Assembly (NCBI GenBank): GCA_007121075.1
Contig: SKMK01000003.1
Span: 18,389 to 82,388, forward strand
DNA length: 64,000 nt
DNA from: Syntrophomonadaceae bacterium
GTDB taxonomy: Bacteria > Bacillota > Dethiobacteria > DTU022
Reading direction: 5' to 3'
Positions 4,823-63,787 of the stretch are shown one piece after another. Position 1 is the stretch's first letter. Each line of letters begins with the position of its first letter. A program made the translations under genes and the position numbers. The notes beneath the pieces were generated by a model that saw only the letters and a list, made by a program, of their open reading frames with translations, had not been told where the DNA came from and made no database searches.

Positions 4823-4899
4823 TGGTCGGAGCGATAGGATTTGAACCTACGACCTCTTGACCCCCAGTCAAGCGCGCTACCAAACTGCGCCACGCCCCG
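4823..4899 (-). tRNA. tRNA-Pro(GGG), CCA encoded
   Basis: Minus strand CGGGGCGTGGCGCAGTTTGGTAGCGCGCTTGACTGGGGGTCAAGAGGTCGTAGGTTCAAATCCTATCGCTCCGACCA; anticodon loop CTGGGGG, T-loop TTCAAAT, pairing acceptor stem. Confidence 0.95.
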
Positions 4900-27877: not shown

Positions 27878-28714
27878 TTATTTCTTCTCATTCATCAGCA
27901 ATTGATGGGCTTCTTCTACAGTCTTTGCTGTTTTTGCTTTACAATCTTCCCGGCATTTGCAAACCCCGGCTTTTTGTCTTGAAAAGTATCCAAAATATTC
28001 AATGTTCCCCTTGGGCCCCGGGTATTGGGAAAAAGTTATACCCCGGCAGCAGTACCCGATTTTGCAAGAATCTTCGACGACATCCTTTAAAATCCGGCAG
28101 TGTAAGTCAGGGTTCCGGATTACGCCCCTGCCCCTTCCGGCATCGGCTTTCCCCGCTTCAAATTGTGGTTTAACCAGGGCCAGGACATGCGGTATCTCAA
28201 GTTGGTAGAGGACGGGCAAAACTTTTAGCAGTGAAATGAACGAAACATCAATTACGGCCAAATCAGGAACTTCCGGAAGATCTTCAGGTTTCAGGAAGCG
28301 GACATTGAAACGCTCCATAACCACTACTGCCGGATTGCGGCGGAGGCTGTAATCCAACTGGCCGTATCCAACATCAAGAGCATAAACCCGGCGGGCACCG
28401 TTCTGCAGCAAGCAATCGGTAAATCCTCCGGTTGAAGCGCCGACATCAAGGATAACCAGGCCCCCGACGTTTATGGCCAGATCTAAAAGGGCTTTTTCCA
28501 GCTTCAGCCCGCCCCGGCTCACGTAAGGGTTGTCCGGTTCAAGAAGTTTTATTTCTGCACTTTCTTCCACCAGGGCCCCGGGTTTATCACATACAGATCC
28601 GTTAACCAGGACTTTTCCGGCCATTATTTCCGCCTGGATTCGGCTCCGGCTCAGTTCCGGTTTCAGCCTGTGCAGAAGAAGATCAAGGCGTTTTTTTTGA
28701 CGGCCGCTTTTCAA
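27878..28714 (-). CDS. tlyA: TlyA family rRNA 2'-O-methyltransferase
   Basis: S4 domain plus DVGASTGGFTDCLLQNGARRVYALDVGYGQLD. Confidence 0.94.
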   Translation of the reverse strand: MKSGRQKKRLDLLLHRLKPELSRSRIQAEIMAGKVLVNGSVCDKPGALVEESAEIKLLEPDNPYVSRGGLKLEKALLDLAINVGGLVILDVGASTGGFTDCLLQNGARRVYALDVGYGQLDYSLRRNPAVVVMERFNVRFLKPEDLPEVPDLAVIDVSFISLLKVLPVLYQLEIPHVLALVKPQFEAGKADAGRGRGVIRNPDLHCRILKDVVEDSCKIGYCCRGITFSQYPGPKGNIEYFGYFSRQKAGVCKCREDCKAKTAKTVEEAHQLLMNEKK

Positions 28715-30609
28715 CTCTGACCCTTCACAGCCCCGGTGCCGACAAAGGCAAGGGCTTCATTAAATATTCCCCAGGCATCAAGTTTGAAATGAGAAAGTAA
28801 TTTAGCCCGGGAACCGTGCTCGACAAATTGATCGTCTATGCCGAGCCTTATTACCGGCACCGACAAACCTTCACCGGCAAGCAATTCGAGAACGCCGCTT
28901 CCAAAACCGCCGGCCAGGACATTTTCTTCCACGGTCAAAACCCGCCCGCACCTGCGGGCCCACAGAGCAATCAGCTCTTTGTCCAAAGGTTTCACAAAGC
29001 GGGCATTGATCACCGCTGCATCAATACCCTGCCGGGTCAGTTTTTCGGCAGCCTCTACAGCATGCTTGACGACCGTTCCGACGGCAACAATCAGCAGCTC
29101 CCGGCCTTCCCGAAGCAACTCGCTCTTGCCCCAGGGTAAAGTGTGCGGCTCTTCTAGGTCTACTCCTTCCACTTTATCGCGCGGGTAACGCAGGGCCACA
29201 GGACCGTCGGAATAGTTTAATGCCGTAAACAGCATGTGTTGGAGTTCGTTTTCATTTGCCGGCGCCATTATAGACATTTTGGGGATGCTGCGCAGAAAAC
29301 TGAGATCAAATAAACCCTGGTGAGTTTCTCCGTCTTCGCCGGTTATACCGGCACGATCAACGGCAAACACAACAGGCAGGTTTTGCATGCAGACATCATG
29401 TAAAATTTGGTCATAGGCTCTTTGCAGGAAGGTGCTGTAAATGGCTACAACCGGCTGCATTCCGCCGGCAGCCAAAGCCCCGGACATAGTTACCGCATGC
29501 TGTTCTGCAATCCCTACATCATAAAACCGCTCCGGAAACTCCCGGGCATAATTTCTCAGGCCGGTGCCTGAGGTCATAGCCGCTGTAATGGCCATAATTT
29601 TCGGGTTCTCACGGCTGAGTTTGATCAGGGTCCGGCCAAAAATTTCTGTGTACGAAGCGCTTTTCTTTTTCTTGAGCAAGCCGTTGTTTAAATCAAAAGG
29701 ACCGATCCCGTGGAAAATTTCCGGTGATTTTTCTGCGTAGTGATAGCCTTTCCCTTTTTCTGTCACCACGTGGATCATGACCGGCCCTTGCATCTGATTG
29801 GCCTGCCGGAGGGTATTTTTAATTGCAGCTATATTATGACCGTCGATGGGGCCAAAATAAGTAAAGCCGAGCTCTTCGAAGATCATGCCAGGCACAACCA
29901 GGTATTTAAGCCCGCCCTTGATCCTGTCGGCATAATTAAGAGCTTTCTTTCCGATCACAGGGATACGACCTATAAAGCTTTCGAAATCGTCCTTTAGTCT
30001 AGAAAATTTTGGATCAGAGCGGATCCGGGCCAGGTAAGCAGACATGCTGCCAACGTTTGAGCTGATCGACATCTCATTGTCGTTTAGAATAACCGTTAAA
30101 TTGGCCTTGATATGGCCGGCGTGGTTAAGGGCTTCAAAAGACATTCCCCCGGTCAGGGCACCGTCTCCGATTACAGCAATAATCTTGTAATCTTCACCAT
30201 TGTAATCCCTGGCCTGGGCCAGACCCAGGGCCGCCGAAATTGAGGTACTGCTGTGTCCGGTCAGAAAAGGATCATGTTCGCTCTCAGAAGGCTTTGGAAA
30301 ACCGCATAAACCATCAAACTGGCGCAGAGTGGCAAACTCCTCCCATCTGCCTGTAAGCAGCTTGTGGGGATAACTCTGATGGCCGACATCCCAAATAATG
30401 CGGTCGGTGGGGCTGTTAAAAGTACTGTGCAAGGCCAGGGTCAGTTCAACCACCCCCAGGCTTGCCGCCAGGTGGCCGCCGTTATCGGCCACCGTCCTGA
30501 TCATGTATTCGCGTATTTCAGAAGCAGCTGTTTCAAGCTGATCCCCGCTCATATTCTTCAGATCATCAGGCAGGTTCATACTGCCAAGCACACCATCCAT
30601 TAAAATCAC
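28711..30609 (-). CDS. dxs: 1-deoxy-D-xylulose-5-phosphate synthase
   Basis: HQSYPHKLLTGR; VIGDGALTGGMSFEALNHAG; GIAEQHAVTMSGALA. Confidence 0.97.
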   Translation of the reverse strand: MILMDGVLGSMNLPDDLKNMSGDQLETAASEIREYMIRTVADNGGHLAASLGVVELTLALHSTFNSPTDRIIWDVGHQSYPHKLLTGRWEEFATLRQFDGLCGFPKPSESEHDPFLTGHSSTSISAALGLAQARDYNGEDYKIIAVIGDGALTGGMSFEALNHAGHIKANLTVILNDNEMSISSNVGSMSAYLARIRSDPKFSRLKDDFESFIGRIPVIGKKALNYADRIKGGLKYLVVPGMIFEELGFTYFGPIDGHNIAAIKNTLRQANQMQGPVMIHVVTEKGKGYHYAEKSPEIFHGIGPFDLNNGLLKKKKSASYTEIFGRTLIKLSRENPKIMAITAAMTSGTGLRNYAREFPERFYDVGIAEQHAVTMSGALAAGGMQPVVAIYSTFLQRAYDQILHDVCMQNLPVVFAVDRAGITGEDGETHQGLFDLSFLRSIPKMSIMAPANENELQHMLFTALNYSDGPVALRYPRDKVEGVDLEEPHTLPWGKSELLREGRELLIVAVGTVVKHAVEAAEKLTRQGIDAAVINARFVKPLDKELIALWARRCGRVLTVEENVLAGGFGSGVLELLAGEGLSVPVIRLGIDDQFVEHGSRAKLLSHFKLDAWGIFNEALAFVGTGAVKGQS

Positions 30610-31187
30610 CTCTGGTTAATATCACCCTTGCTGAACCAGCTTAGCGGCTTTTGCAATCTGGTAATCAGCAATCCAACCATTAAAATCACTTCGGTAGAAT
30701 AATTAATGGCAATTATTTTACCCCAGGCTTTACCGCCTACTGTAAGGGCTGCAACAAGAGCGGTCAGCAAAATTCCCAGGTAAAATTCAGCCTGCTGATG
30801 TGAGAATGTAACCACCAGCTTGATTACGATTACTGTCACCAGGGTCCCGCTGATTATACCACTGATATCGCCGCCCACGTCGTTGCAGAATGTCGCTACC
30901 CGTTCGGCGTTCTTAACCAGGTTGACTCCGCATTTGGCTCCTGTAACTCTTCGGGCCGCCTTGGCGTTGAGCGGCGCTATGTCAGCCGCGGCTGCCGCGG
31001 TACCGATCAGGTCAAAAACGATGCCCAGCATAACTACCAGCAGCAGGATCATAAAAGACAACGCAATCGACTGCAGCTCGTTTAAAAAATAATGTGATAC
31101 AAAGCTGAGGGCCACAGCCAGGAAAAAAGTCCACAAAGAAATGACAATGATCCAGCGGATTCTGCTTCGGTTTTTACTGTTGGACAA
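30606..31187 (-). CDS. multipass membrane protein, probable OLE-associated protein OapA
   Basis: 193 aa with several hydrophobic spans. Lies between dxs and a large structured non-coding region, which is the OapA position. Apparent TTG start. Confidence 0.75.
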   Translation of the reverse strand: MSNSKNRSRIRWIIVISLWTFFLAVALSFVSHYFLNELQSIALSFMILLLVVMLGIVFDLIGTAAAAADIAPLNAKAARRVTGAKCGVNLVKNAERVATFCNDVGGDISGIISGTLVTVIVIKLVVTFSHQQAEFYLGILLTALVAALTVGGKAWGKIIAINYSTEVILMVGLLITRLQKPLSWFSKGDINQR

Positions 31188-31195
31188 TAGCCATC

Positions 31196-31776
31196 ACCTT
31201 TGTACAAAGAAACACAAGTGGTAGCAAGCCAGGTAAACTTTGCGGCTTAGGTCCAGCAGGTTTTCCCGGATAGTCACCTGCAGTCGCCTGTCAGGCTGTT
31301 CCCATTTAAAGACTATCCCCGTCGTGTCGCCACTAACGGAGCTGGATTACCACTTAGCTCACACTTTAATCCCTGGCTTACTTCTCTTACGAGAGCAGTC
31401 TAGGCGATTTCCACTCTGGCGCCTGATCTCCCCTAGCCTCTTTTGCAGAAAGGGTTTCAGAATTTAACTCCTCTACCCTGTCCACTCAAGGCAGGCTACA
31501 CTGTACACAGCTTCTTACCGCATACAGGTTCTTCCCAAGCCGTAACCTTTTGTTTCTCAACAATCCGCCACGAACATTGGGTCTCCACGAAGGCAGGGTC
31601 AACGCCTACATGCCTTTGTAGATCGCCCCGTCCTTCTTAACTCCCAGCAGCAGCTCCCAACTGGGCTTCGGCAGCCGCCACCAGGAACTTCATCGATGTG
31701 CCCTTAACGGATTTTTAGGCCCGTTTTCGGGAAGGGGCGCCAACTAGAATACTGCACCACTTATGCTTGCTTCAGT
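31196..31776 (-). ncRNA. probable OLE (ornate, large, extremophilic) RNA
   Basis: About 575 nt without credible ORFs, GC-rich and stem-rich (e.g. GGATAGTC 31268..31275 pairs with GACTATCC 31311..31318). Own promoter. Exact ispA-[OLE]-oapA-dxs gene context. Boundaries approximate. Confidence 0.8.
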
Positions 31777-31781
31777 ATTAT

Positions 31782-31810
31782 ATCATAGCACAACCTCCAT
31801 ATGCAGACAA
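31782..31810 (-). promoter_or_regulatory. sigma-A-type promoter for the OLE-like RNA
   Basis: Minus strand TTGTCT - 17 nt - TATGAT. Confidence 0.6.
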
Positions 31811-31900: not shown

Positions 31901-32785
31901 TTATTTACTCCTGAATACCATTTTTTTTGCCAGGCCGGTTAAAAGCTCCACCGGCCGGTTTAAACCTGTTAAAGCCATTATTGCTTCGTTATAAAGGCTT
32001 TCTGCCCTTGATCTGGCCTCATCTGGACCCAGCACGGCCGGAAAGGTAGGCTTAAAGCGGTCCCGGTCCGCACCTGTAGGTTTGCCCAGTTCTTCGGCTG
32101 AGCTTTCCACATCCAGGAGATCGTCAATGATCTGAAAAGCGGTCCCGATCTTTGAAGCATAGCGGTCCAGCAGCTCCAGCTCCTTGCTGCCAGCATCTGC
32201 TGCTAGAGCCCCGCAAATAACAGAAGCCTTCAACAGTGCTCCTGTTTTCATGGCCGAAATGGTTTCAATTTCCAGAAGAGTCAAATCACGTCCTTCCGCC
32301 TCCAGGTCAAGGACCTGACCCCCAATCATGCCGGTTACCCCGGCCGTTTTGCCGAGCTCGGTACCGATCCGCGCCGCTTTTTCCGCCCGTCCGGGCTTCA
32401 AACCGTAGCGGGATAACAGCTCAAAAGAAAGGGTCAGGAGGGCATCTCCGGCCAGCACGGCAACGGCATCCCCGTATACTTTGTGGCAGGTCGGCTTTCC
32501 CCGCCTCAAATCGCTATCGTCCAGGGCCGGTAGATCATCATGAATCAGGGAATAGGTGTGGACCAGCTCCAGGGCACAGGCCACATCAATCACGTCATGA
32601 TCATCACAACCCAGGGTTTCGGCAGCGGCCAGGGTCAGGATTGGGCGCAGGCGCTTTCCTCCGGCTTCAAGGCTGTACCTCATAGCCTCCCTGACCGCTT
32701 TTGGCCCGGTATCTGGCAGGCATTCTTTTAAAGCCCTGTTAACAATCTCTTTTTTTTGAGTAAGGTACCGATCAATCTCGATCAT
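31901..32785 (-). CDS. ispA: farnesyl/geranylgeranyl diphosphate synthase
   Basis: LIHDDLPALDDSDLRRGKPTCHK and FQIIDDLLDVE aspartate-rich motifs. Confidence 0.96.
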   Translation of the reverse strand: MIEIDRYLTQKKEIVNRALKECLPDTGPKAVREAMRYSLEAGGKRLRPILTLAAAETLGCDDHDVIDVACALELVHTYSLIHDDLPALDDSDLRRGKPTCHKVYGDAVAVLAGDALLTLSFELLSRYGLKPGRAEKAARIGTELGKTAGVTGMIGGQVLDLEAEGRDLTLLEIETISAMKTGALLKASVICGALAADAGSKELELLDRYASKIGTAFQIIDDLLDVESSAEELGKPTGADRDRFKPTFPAVLGPDEARSRAESLYNEAIMALTGLNRPVELLTGLAKKMVFRSK

Positions 32786-60491: not shown

Positions 60492-60836
60492 TTACTCACC
60501 GGCCGGAAAAAAATATTTAATAGTACCGGTATGGTCTTCATATTCATAACCCACCTGCTTAACTTCTCCGGTTACTTCTAAAAGCAACTCATCAAAAACA
60601 ATAGTCAGGTTAGTTTCATCATACTGTTCTTCTAATCCGGAAGCAATCTTATTATCCATTTCTTCCTGGGCCCTGAATAGAGCTTCGCTTTTTCTGCCCG
60701 CACCAAAGATTCCGGAAAAACTGGTGGTGAAAAGCAAGGTGAAAGAAAAAATAATCATCATCAGTATCGATATGGCAATGAGTAACTCTACCAGGGTGAA
60801 ACCCTTTTGGTGGTTTATTAATTTTTTTATTACCAT
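60492..60836 (-). CDS. pseudopilin (GspI-like)
   Basis: HQKGFTLVELLIAISILMMIIFSFTLLF. Confidence 0.88.
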   Translation of the reverse strand: MVIKKLINHQKGFTLVELLIAISILMMIIFSFTLLFTTSFSGIFGAGRKSEALFRAQEEMDNKIASGLEEQYDETNLTIVFDELLLEVTGEVKQVGYEYEDHTGTIKYFFPAGE

Positions 60837-60854: not shown

Positions 60855-62012
60855 TTAATCGCCGTAACGCCATTCTTCCATCCTGTAAAATGATAAATCC
60901 AGCCCGGTCTTGGCCATTTCTATCGGGCTGTAATTTAACTCCAGGTTACCCTCACCCTCAAAGTTATCGGCTATAATCCAGCCGGTTAGACTGCTGTTGC
61001 CAAGTAATAAAGTATCAGCCTGGGGGCCATAGATGACCCCTTCAAAGTTAGGTGTCCCTCCAAGATCAAATTTTCCGCCTTCCATCACTAAAATATTGAC
61101 ATTTACATCCGCATCGGAAGCATGCTGAAATGTACCGCCGCCGGTATAATTTCTTACATAGAACATCAAGAAACCTTCACCTTTAATAAATACTTCACTG
61201 TTGCCGGTGCTTCTAAAATCATCCACTACAATGGCTACCGTATTATTATCCAGGGTAACGTTCATATCATTGTTTTTCAAATCTATTCTGTCTGCTTTTA
61301 CCAGTAGATCTTCACTATTTTCAGTTTCAATATTCAATTCTTTATGATCTCCGTCCAAAACTATCTCTTCGTACTGGCTGTGTTCAGTTATAATTTCACC
61401 TTCAAAAGGATCACTTGAATCTAAAGGGCATACTCCATAAAAATCTGAATCTTCATCCTCACAGGGAGGAACCACGGGATCAAATTCACGTTTAAGGGGT
61501 ATCGTTTCAGCGTCTTCATCCAGAATCGCTTCTTCATCCATATCAATACTATCACCATAAACAACATCCCCTCCGGAGATTGTTCCCGCAACGCCATCTA
61601 CCTTAATTGTGTTGCCATATAAAGTAAAATCCACTTCCCTGTCTCCGAGGGTGACGACCACTGTTTGCTCAACACCTCTGTGGGTTCCAGTAGATTTAAT
61701 ATAGATTTCTCTTTCATCAGAACTCATGGAAACTTCAATCACAAACTGACCATCTGCAAAATCTACCGGTTCTGATGAGGGCGAGTTAACCAGATCTTGA
61801 TCAAGATCCTGGTTTTCAAGCAACTTCAAAGCTACAGCGTGGGCGCCTGACCGGGCTATATAATGGGCCTTCATTTTATTTTCATCCCTGGCCACCTGTG
61901 TTGTTTCGGTCATATTAAATAAAAACAATGTCAGCCCAATTAAAGTTAAGGCCAGGACTATTACCAGGGTCAACGGCAGTGCAAAACCACTTTCATTTTT
62001 GTAAATCTGCAT
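60855..62012 (-). CDS. PilX-like protein with polymer-forming-type C-terminal region
   Basis: NESGFALPLTLVIVLALTLIGLTLFLFNMTETTQVARDENKMKAHYIARSGAHAVAL. Start placed at MQIYKNE after AGGAGAG. Confidence 0.75.
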   Translation of the reverse strand: MQIYKNESGFALPLTLVIVLALTLIGLTLFLFNMTETTQVARDENKMKAHYIARSGAHAVALKLLENQDLDQDLVNSPSSEPVDFADGQFVIEVSMSSDEREIYIKSTGTHRGVEQTVVVTLGDREVDFTLYGNTIKVDGVAGTISGGDVVYGDSIDMDEEAILDEDAETIPLKREFDPVVPPCEDEDSDFYGVCPLDSSDPFEGEIITEHSQYEEIVLDGDHKELNIETENSEDLLVKADRIDLKNNDMNVTLDNNTVAIVVDDFRSTGNSEVFIKGEGFLMFYVRNYTGGGTFQHASDADVNVNILVMEGGKFDLGGTPNFEGVIYGPQADTLLLGNSSLTGWIIADNFEGEGNLELNYSPIEMAKTGLDLSFYRMEEWRYGD

Positions 62013-62100
62013 CTTATTGGCTCTCCTATCATCTGGAGCAATATTTTCATAGTATGTGAGCATTAGTAAGATAGTTGATAACTTTGCTTCATAAAAAACA

Positions 62101-62197
62101 ACCCACTTCGGCAGCCAGGCGATCCTAGCCCGCAGCAGCGAACCTTAGACCCTTAAGCTTTGCGCCCCCGCTTTTCAGCAGGTTTGCCATTATCGTT
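62101..62197 (-). promoter_or_regulatory. cyclic di-GMP-I (GEMM-I) riboswitch aptamer
   Basis: Minus strand GGCAAACCTGCTGAAAAGCGGGGGCGCAAAGCTTAAGGGTCTAAGG...GCTAGGATCGCCTGGCTGCCGA matches the GEMM core (GGCAAACC-GAAA-GG-CGCAAAGC, CUAA/UAGG receptor). Confidence 0.9.
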
Positions 62198-62311: not shown

Positions 62312-63787
62312 TTAAACAAATATCCGTTTAAATTCTTCATAAGATGTCAGGCCTGTTTTTACTTTCTCCAGGCCGTTCAAGCGAAGCGGCGCCATCCCCT
62401 CTTCAACCGCTATTCTGCGAATATCCTGGGCTGACTTTACCTTCCTGACCGCTTTCCTTATTTTATCATTTACTACCAGCAGTTCAAATACCCCCGTCCT
62501 TCCGCTGTAACCGGTGTGATCACAAACAGAGCATCCTTGCGCGCTGTACAACTCTATCAAGCCGCCGGGATTTTCCACCGGAAACTCCGGTTCTTCTTTT
62601 AACAACTCTTCAGCAGCAATAGCATCCTTTCTCCTGCAGTTGCGGCACAGTTTCCTTACCAGCCGCTGGGATAATACACCGGTCAGGGTAGACTCGGCCA
62701 GGTAAGGCTCCACTCCCATATCCAGCAGGTGCACCACCGCCTTGGCGGAATCTTCGGCATGGAGGGTGGACAACACCAAATGCCCGGTAAGGGCTGCTTC
62801 CGTGGCCATGGTTCCCGTTTCGGAATCCCTGATTTCACCGACCATAATTACATCGGGGTGATTGCGGAGCACAGACCGCAACCCGGAAAAAAAGGTCACT
62901 CCCGCTTTCCTGTTATAGGGGATCTGGCTAATACCTTTAATCTTTTTTTCAACCGGATCTTCTATAGTAATAATATTCCTGTCTTCGGTATTTATTTCAG
63001 TCAAAGCAGCATATAAAGTTGTGCTTTTACCGCTTCCCGTGGGGCCGGTTGCGACAATAAACCCGTACGGGTAACAAATAAGTTCTTTAAACTTTTTCAA
63101 CTGGTCTTCCTTAAACCCGAGCTTGTTTAAATTCATCAACCCCGGCTCATGAAAAAGGAGGCGCAAAGTTATGCGTTCCCCATAGTAAGAAGGCAGGGTA
63201 GCAACCCGTACATCGATCAACTCCCTGTCTTTTAGCACTGACATTCTCCCATCCTGGGGGGTGCGGTTATTGGTTATATCCATGTTAGCCAGCACTTTTA
63301 CCCGTGAAACCAGCGAATCATGATATTCGGTAGATATTGAAAACCGGTAATGCAGGACCCCGTCAATGCGAAAACGAATTTTTACCTCATCTTCATGCGG
63401 TTCGATATGAACATCATTAGCCCTTTCCTGCACAGCCAGCGAAAGTAATTTGTTAAGGATTTCCACCGAAGGAAAGGTAGAATCCGGCCCCGTTGAAAGG
63501 ACCAGGCATTCTCTTTTACCCTCAAAGTCCGTTTCTTCGAACTGCCTGAAAAATTCAAAACCCTCTACTTCTTTCCCGTACTTACTGCTGACCTTGTTAA
63601 TCAGGGTTTCCAAATCGGAGTCTTTAATCAACACTGGTTGAATCTCCATCCCGGTAATCATGCGCAGATCATCGATAGCTTCTATATCTGCCGGGTGCAT
63701 CATGGCCACCATCAGGACATTGTTTTCCCTATTAACCGGAAAAACTTTATACCGGTTGGCCGTGCTGCGCGGTATTAATTTAATCAC
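62312..63787 (-). CDS. GspE/PilB ATPase; frame continues upstream to the window edge but is interrupted by a TGA at 63872..63874
   Basis: GPTGSGKSTTLYAALTEI; VGEIRDSETGTMATEAALTGHLVLSTLHAEDS; CRNC/CSVC zinc motif. Upstream frame reads EQLIKNDIITRKQLEEALAVQGERAQRGETAYLGNILLELGY*TDEELARVLARKHNVPYFNI. Confidence 0.9.
   Translation of the reverse strand: MIKLIPRSTANRYKVFPVNRENNVLMVAMMHPADIEAIDDLRMITGMEIQPVLIKDSDLETLINKVSSKYGKEVEGFEFFRQFEETDFEGKRECLVLSTGPDSTFPSVEILNKLLSLAVQERANDVHIEPHEDEVKIRFRIDGVLHYRFSISTEYHDSLVSRVKVLANMDITNNRTPQDGRMSVLKDRELIDVRVATLPSYYGERITLRLLFHEPGLMNLNKLGFKEDQLKKFKELICYPYGFIVATGPTGSGKSTTLYAALTEINTEDRNIITIEDPVEKKIKGISQIPYNRKAGVTFFSGLRSVLRNHPDVIMVGEIRDSETGTMATEAALTGHLVLSTLHAEDSAKAVVHLLDMGVEPYLAESTLTGVLSQRLVRKLCRNCRRKDAIAAEELLKEEPEFPVENPGGLIELYSAQGCSVCDHTGYSGRTGVFELLVVNDKIRKAVRKVKSAQDIRRIAVEEGMAPLRLNGLEKVKTGLTSYEEFKRIFV

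Follow-up and report, generated by a model that had tools for sequence, protein, structure and literature searches.

A Syntrophomonadaceae OLE RNA that lacks the distal P9 arm, with its partner gene oapA

OLE is a large membrane-associated non-coding RNA that is known in many Gram-positive bacteria. In Halalkalibacterium halodurans, ole was already reported to have its own promoter within a larger operon (PMC9723947). The P1 and P3/P3.1 helices have been named (PMC12265935), and the P3/P3.1 stem has been proposed to cross the membrane. In cryo-EM structures of the OLE dimer, the A-rich P4 loops form bridge B1, the P5/P6 loops bridge B2, and the P9 loop the intermolecular bridge B3; covariation of the P9 loop was cited in support of the dimer (PMC12286853). 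Sites for partner proteins have also been reported: the palindrome AUCGAU near P4a for OapA, a kink turn for OapC (PMC12265935, PMC9723947), a further site for OapB (PMC9723947), and the P6 region as the stem that binds bS21 (PMC12054373).

We analyzed a stretch of 64,000 nucleotides from a Syntrophomonadaceae bacterium, hereafter the window, whose source assembly is fragmented (82 contigs, 90% complete, 3.5% contamination). An earlier note on this DNA had proposed an OLE RNA at 31196-31810, and the covariance-model check that it asked for was passed: Rfam RF01071 matches the minus strand at 31776-31202 with 469.1 bits (E 1.6e-134; gathering score 50 bits) over model positions 1-616 of 616. 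This stretch is a genuine OLE RNA, and its membership in the family is beyond doubt. The proposed extent stands in that the OLE lies within it; the RNA proper is confined to 31776-31202, the remainder belonging to the promoter and, for a few bases, to the oapA leader. As the note had it, the stretch holds no credible open reading frame (none of at least 60 aa on the minus strand), and its neighbors are those described there; on the minus strand the full order is xseA, xseB, ispA, OLE, oapA (the 193-aa membrane protein), dxs, tlyA, NAD kinase, and recN. A whole-genome search found a single OLE copy. The main features of the locus are:

31901-32785, minus strand: ispA-type farnesyl diphosphate synthase gene, upstream neighbor (NF045485 above cutoff)
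31782-31810, minus strand: proposed promoter of extended -10 sigma-A type, with TTGTCT (31810-31805), a 17-bp spacer ending in TGC, and TATGAT (31787-31782) (site scan and conservation in the order)
31202-31776, minus strand: OLE RNA (RF01071), full-length match (covariance model, fold z -6.7, covariation in 51 sequences)
30606-31187, minus strand: oapA, 193 aa, TTG start, AAAGGTGATGG at 31201-31191 (open reading frame, motif, fold, and context evidence)
28711-30609, minus strand: dxs, downstream neighbor (TIGR00204, 879 bits)

Two further RNA genes or elements were seen in the window. A c-di-GMP-I-GGC riboswitch (62106-62197, minus strand; 61.7 bits against a cutoff of 59) lies between a gene for a PilB/GspE-type ATPase (62312-63787) and a 402-aa gene of no known family (60855-62063), and a ComGE-like minor pilin (60492-60836) comes after the latter; type IV pili may be under cyclic-dinucleotide control at this locus. 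A tRNA gene is located at 4826-4899 (minus strand, 64.5 bits).

The gene that begins 14 bases downstream of OLE had been called OapA-like, and the note would have been refuted had its product failed to match OapA; this check too was passed, as several indications identify the gene as oapA. It adjoins OLE across the order, where homologs of its product are likewise found beside the RNA. The product carries the motif DxxxD (D103-VGG-D107), which is invariant in 22 aligned sequences; the motif was reported to distinguish OapA from CNNM domains, which lack it (PMC11332333). CNNM matches were obtained for 11 of the 22 family members, and the top structural matches of the AlphaFold model of the 193-aa protein (pLDDT 84) are to MtCorB (7m1t/7m1u), a CNNM protein from an archaeon, with probability 1.00, the match itself being modest (E 6.9e-3, TM 0.55). 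The membrane domain of bacterial CorC is also among the best solved relatives, and the authors who described OapA likewise found MtCorB as its closest structural relative. Searching for the OapA family directly with profiles gave no match in NCBIfam and weak CNNM and MARVEL matches only in Pfam, and a sequence search of the PDB gave nothing convincing.

Genes for the other known partners were sought elsewhere in the genome, as the earlier note had suggested, and both OapB and OapC are present. The OapB gene (G000:C48:4641-4928) was located by following the map-infA gene order in a sister genome, with whose protein it shares 96% identity; that sister protein, of KOW type, matches the OLE-associated protein B structure (PDB 7k9b, E 2.7e-7). 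A KOW family search for OapB in the source genome returned only NusG above cutoff, and weak KOW matches in three other genomes (G016, G017, G013) led to unrelated genes and were rejected as OapB. OapC is a kink-turn protein of the YbxF-type L7Ae family (3v7e/4lck, E 2e-15) encoded between rpoC and rpsL, and bS21 is also encoded in the genome. The source genome further contains one CNNM protein without recognizable CBS or CorC domains. In the order, just 11 of 71 genomes gave a strong CNNM match, which agrees with reports that MpfA is scarce among OLE carriers.

OLE was detected in 62 of the 71 order genomes, and OLE, OapA, and OapB are each present in all 35 that are near-complete. Across a phylum-wide sample, 287 of 399 genomes (about 70%) carry the RNA. 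Because OLE is found in all near-complete genomes of the order and so widely in the phylum, its presence in the window is ordinary. The named relatives are Syntrophomonadaceae MAGs. They bear the isolate names T1Sed, CSSed, and B1Sed, which we take to denote soda-lake sediment samples, and the source bacterium is probably from a soda lake. In six relatives (G001, G004, G007, G053, G054, G062) contigs break off within the 5' portion of OLE; near-identical stretches shared between species probably disrupt the assembly graph there. Two genomes have two OLE-OapA loci each, one or both of them cut by contig ends (L149 and L150 in G043; L151 and L152 in G062), and are most simply explained as mixed MAG bins.

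The promoter TTGTCT-17-TATGAT, also named in the earlier note, is present at 31810-31782. In a single-sequence scan it does not stand out, as one site was found against 1.6 expected from shuffles, which is chance level; conservation argues that it is real. At 49 of 50 order loci, OLE is closely preceded by TTGnnn, a spacer of 17 bases (once 18), and a TGnTATAAT-like hexamer, with 13 to 25 bases between the -10 box and the first conserved OLE element, and the other bases between ispA and OLE are poorly conserved. At one of these loci (L013) the automatic pick took another site, and the alignment shows the conserved promoter there. In the wider phylum, a similar site is present at 57 of 68 loci, and at 50 of these it includes TG. 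Positions 1-6 of RF01071 (uaauau) resemble the end of a -10 box, and the model may begin slightly upstream of the RNA. The one order locus without the conserved promoter, L078 (G056:C183, OLE at 1008-1601 on the minus strand), has lost this extended -10 element together with the A-rich P4 loop and the AUCGAU palindrome, and is possibly a decaying copy; its genus mate L076 has the promoter. No terminator-like site was seen between OLE and oapA, and their co-transcription is therefore likely.

The many complementary segments that had been noticed in the stretch are borne out by its folding. The minus strand has a minimum free energy of -239.9 kcal/mol against a mean of -191.4 kcal/mol for shuffled sequences (z -6.7), and none of 100 shuffles was as stable. 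We aligned the window with 50 further OLE sequences of the same order, using MAFFT and no model. The window has 143 of the model pairs; in these 51 sequences, 92% of the corresponding cells hold a standard pair, and compensatory changes are seen at 71 of the pairs. Sliding the partners by one to three bases lowers the paired share to 39-46%. Two covarying helices are absent from the Rfam drawing. A terminal helix of 14 pairs joins the two ends of the RNA (OLE 9-22/554-567; 95% paired in the 51 sequences, seven pairs with compensatory changes) and is probably the published P1. A long helix consists of 35-41/354-360 (96% paired, six pairs with compensatory changes) and 45-48/344-347 (97% paired, three pairs); it fits the published P3/P3.1, and we take both helices as known. 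The elements of the RNA are as follows:

31755-31768, minus strand: terminal helix, 5' strand, pairing with 31210-31223 (covariation)
31729-31742, minus strand: long helix, 5' strand (TGGCGCC + TCCC), at the P3/P3.1 position (covariation)
31706-31725, minus strand: P4 hairpin with conserved A-rich loop CCUAAAAAUCC (model match, covariation, motif search)
31688-31703, minus strand: GGGCACAUCGAUGAAG, holding the palindrome AUCGAU and a strand of the kink turn for OapC (same sequence as the Rfam consensus), a putative OapA/OapC contact region by analogy
31589-31636, minus strand: P6 region with P6.1 loop CAAAGGCAUG (model match; 100% paired across 51 sequences)
31436-31492, minus strand: P9 in short form, distal arm missing (model alignment, comparison in order and phylum)
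31417-31433, minus strand: long helix, 3' strand (covariation)
31268-31318, minus strand: 3'-domain hairpins with GGCGAC loop, inferred to be P12.2/P13, a retained OapB-type site (covariation, loop comparison)
31210-31223, minus strand: terminal helix, 3' strand (covariation)

The loop sequences of L4 (B1) and L5/L6 (B2), including P5.1/P6.1, are present in the window at the level of motifs, their contacts being predicted.

The single unusual feature of this RNA, a modest structural one, concerns the P9 arm. Compared with the model, the window lacks 42 P9 positions (about Rfam 312-353) and has one base in their place, leaving 37 nt between anchors against 71-83 in armed RNAs. Most OLEs of the phylum sample have a long P9 arm whose central loop is GC-rich and self-complementary (GGCC, GGGCCC, or GAGCTC, for example); a central GC-rich palindrome occurs in 63 of 64 armed RNAs against 9 of 57 armless ones, the latter being about the frequency expected by chance. 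The short arm, of 36-50 bases, is common to the window and 49 relatives of its order. When P9 was left out of the OLE tree, these 50 RNAs came out as a single group (SH-aLRT 90). A small number of armless RNAs are placed elsewhere on the tree, giving six changes in total, or three when three long-branch rows are left out; such examples from other lineages were chosen for their short length, so that their number gives no frequency. The rest of the RNA is retained: the P7-P8 segment measures 80 nt in the window (medians of 80 in the order and 79 in armed RNAs), and a GGYGAC-type loop is kept in all 50 order RNAs. One candidate for an armed OLE within the order, L011 (G043:C128), was set aside; a second OLE-OapA end lies on contig C93 of the same genome, C128 is more likely a contaminant, and L011 was not counted as evidence for an ancestral arm.

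In the article texts that were searched, we found no description of an OLE with only P9 shortened. We see an even chance that these RNAs represent an OLE subtype of their own that has yet to be described. It would have lost the P9 arm alone, and bridge B3 with it, more than once, one of these losses lying at the base of a large clade, and would have kept the known partners and other contact loops. The simplest reading is that bridge B3 is dispensable, at least in armless species, and a replacement contact is possible. If the subtype is real, the B3 kissing loop would be dispensable or replaced, and armless OLEs would offer a natural test of the dimer model: such a natural deletion that still dimerizes would mean that the P9 kissing loop is unneeded, and one that does not would mean that the dimer is not universal.

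The missing arm could also be read as an assembly error, given that the order genomes are fragmented and that the contigs of several relatives break inside OLE. We find this hardly credible, for the short arm recurs in 50 genomes of four families with loops that vary and are always short, and single-contig genomes from other lineages (G372 and G453) are armless as well. It is similarly improbable, in the extreme, that the locus is a decayed or unexpressed relic persisting in the operon. The lost distal arm and the relative L078, which lacks P4 loop and promoter, would suit such decay, but all other helices of the window RNA are retained with compensatory changes, its promoter is conserved, every near-complete genome of the order has an OLE, and the loss of the arm is common to a whole clade that keeps the remainder.

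A cis-regulatory leader of oapA or dxs, as opposed to an independent RNA, would also be expected to sit right before oapA without an intervening terminator, as this RNA does. That it is such a leader is very unlikely: the family is known as a free RNA of about 600 nt working with proteins whose genes lie elsewhere (PMC9723947, PMC12054373), and pairing of its two ends closes the RNA before the oapA ribosome-binding site. Taken whole, the observations are best explained by an OLE RNA gene that this Syntrophomonadaceae bacterium carries together with the partner gene oapA, a reading of which we are nearly certain.

How this OLE may work can be proposed by analogy with the literature. RNA polymerase would start at the extended -10 promoter just upstream of OLE and continue into oapA, so that RNA and membrane partner derive from one transcript, to which read-through from ispA may contribute. 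The RNA of about 0.57 kb adopts the OLE structure, closed by pairing of its two ends, and probably homodimerizes by contacts of its A-rich P4 loops and of its P5/P6 loops; with the P9 arm and its kissing loop gone in this lineage, any dimer would form without bridge B3. The CNNM-like membrane protein OapA would anchor the RNA, and OapB, OapC, and bS21 may bind their respective sites. As in H. halodurans, the particle most likely aids tolerance of stress (Mg2+, cold, alcohols, poor carbon sources). The mechanism of the OLE family is poorly understood, as the earlier note remarked, and the window copy leaves that unchanged; what it contributes is a complete OLE system from a group of mostly uncultured bacteria.

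Among described systems, the OLE of H. halodurans with OapA, OapB, OapC, and bS21 resembles the window in its full-length match to RF01071, the same partner genes, oapA directly downstream, the cluster of isoprenoid and other basic genes, and an own promoter in an operon context; it measures about 630 nt against 575 in the window, which is without the distal P9 arm. With the OLE dimer of C. acetobutylicum (PDB 9MCW; PMC12286853) the window shares the P3-P8 domain, the A-rich P4 loop (B1), and the P5/P6 loop sequences (B2), whereas the L9.3 kissing loop (B3) is impossible because the arm is missing. The window OapA has a CNNM-like fold in common with the CNNM Mg2+ transporters MpfA/CorB and differs from them by its DxxxD motif, the lack of CBS/CorC domains, and a gene adjoining OLE. 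The two published OLE variants were compared by their wording in PMC11332333. Variant 1 also has a shorter P9, but its P7/P8 are short and its OapB site is often missing, whereas the window keeps the P7/P8 lengths, the OapB-type loop, and OapB; variant 2 is without P7/P8, which are of full length in the window. Since a published variant already has a shortened P9, the arm is no defining feature of OLE, and the window OLE is an ordinary case of the known family with lineage-specific structural trimming and no new system.
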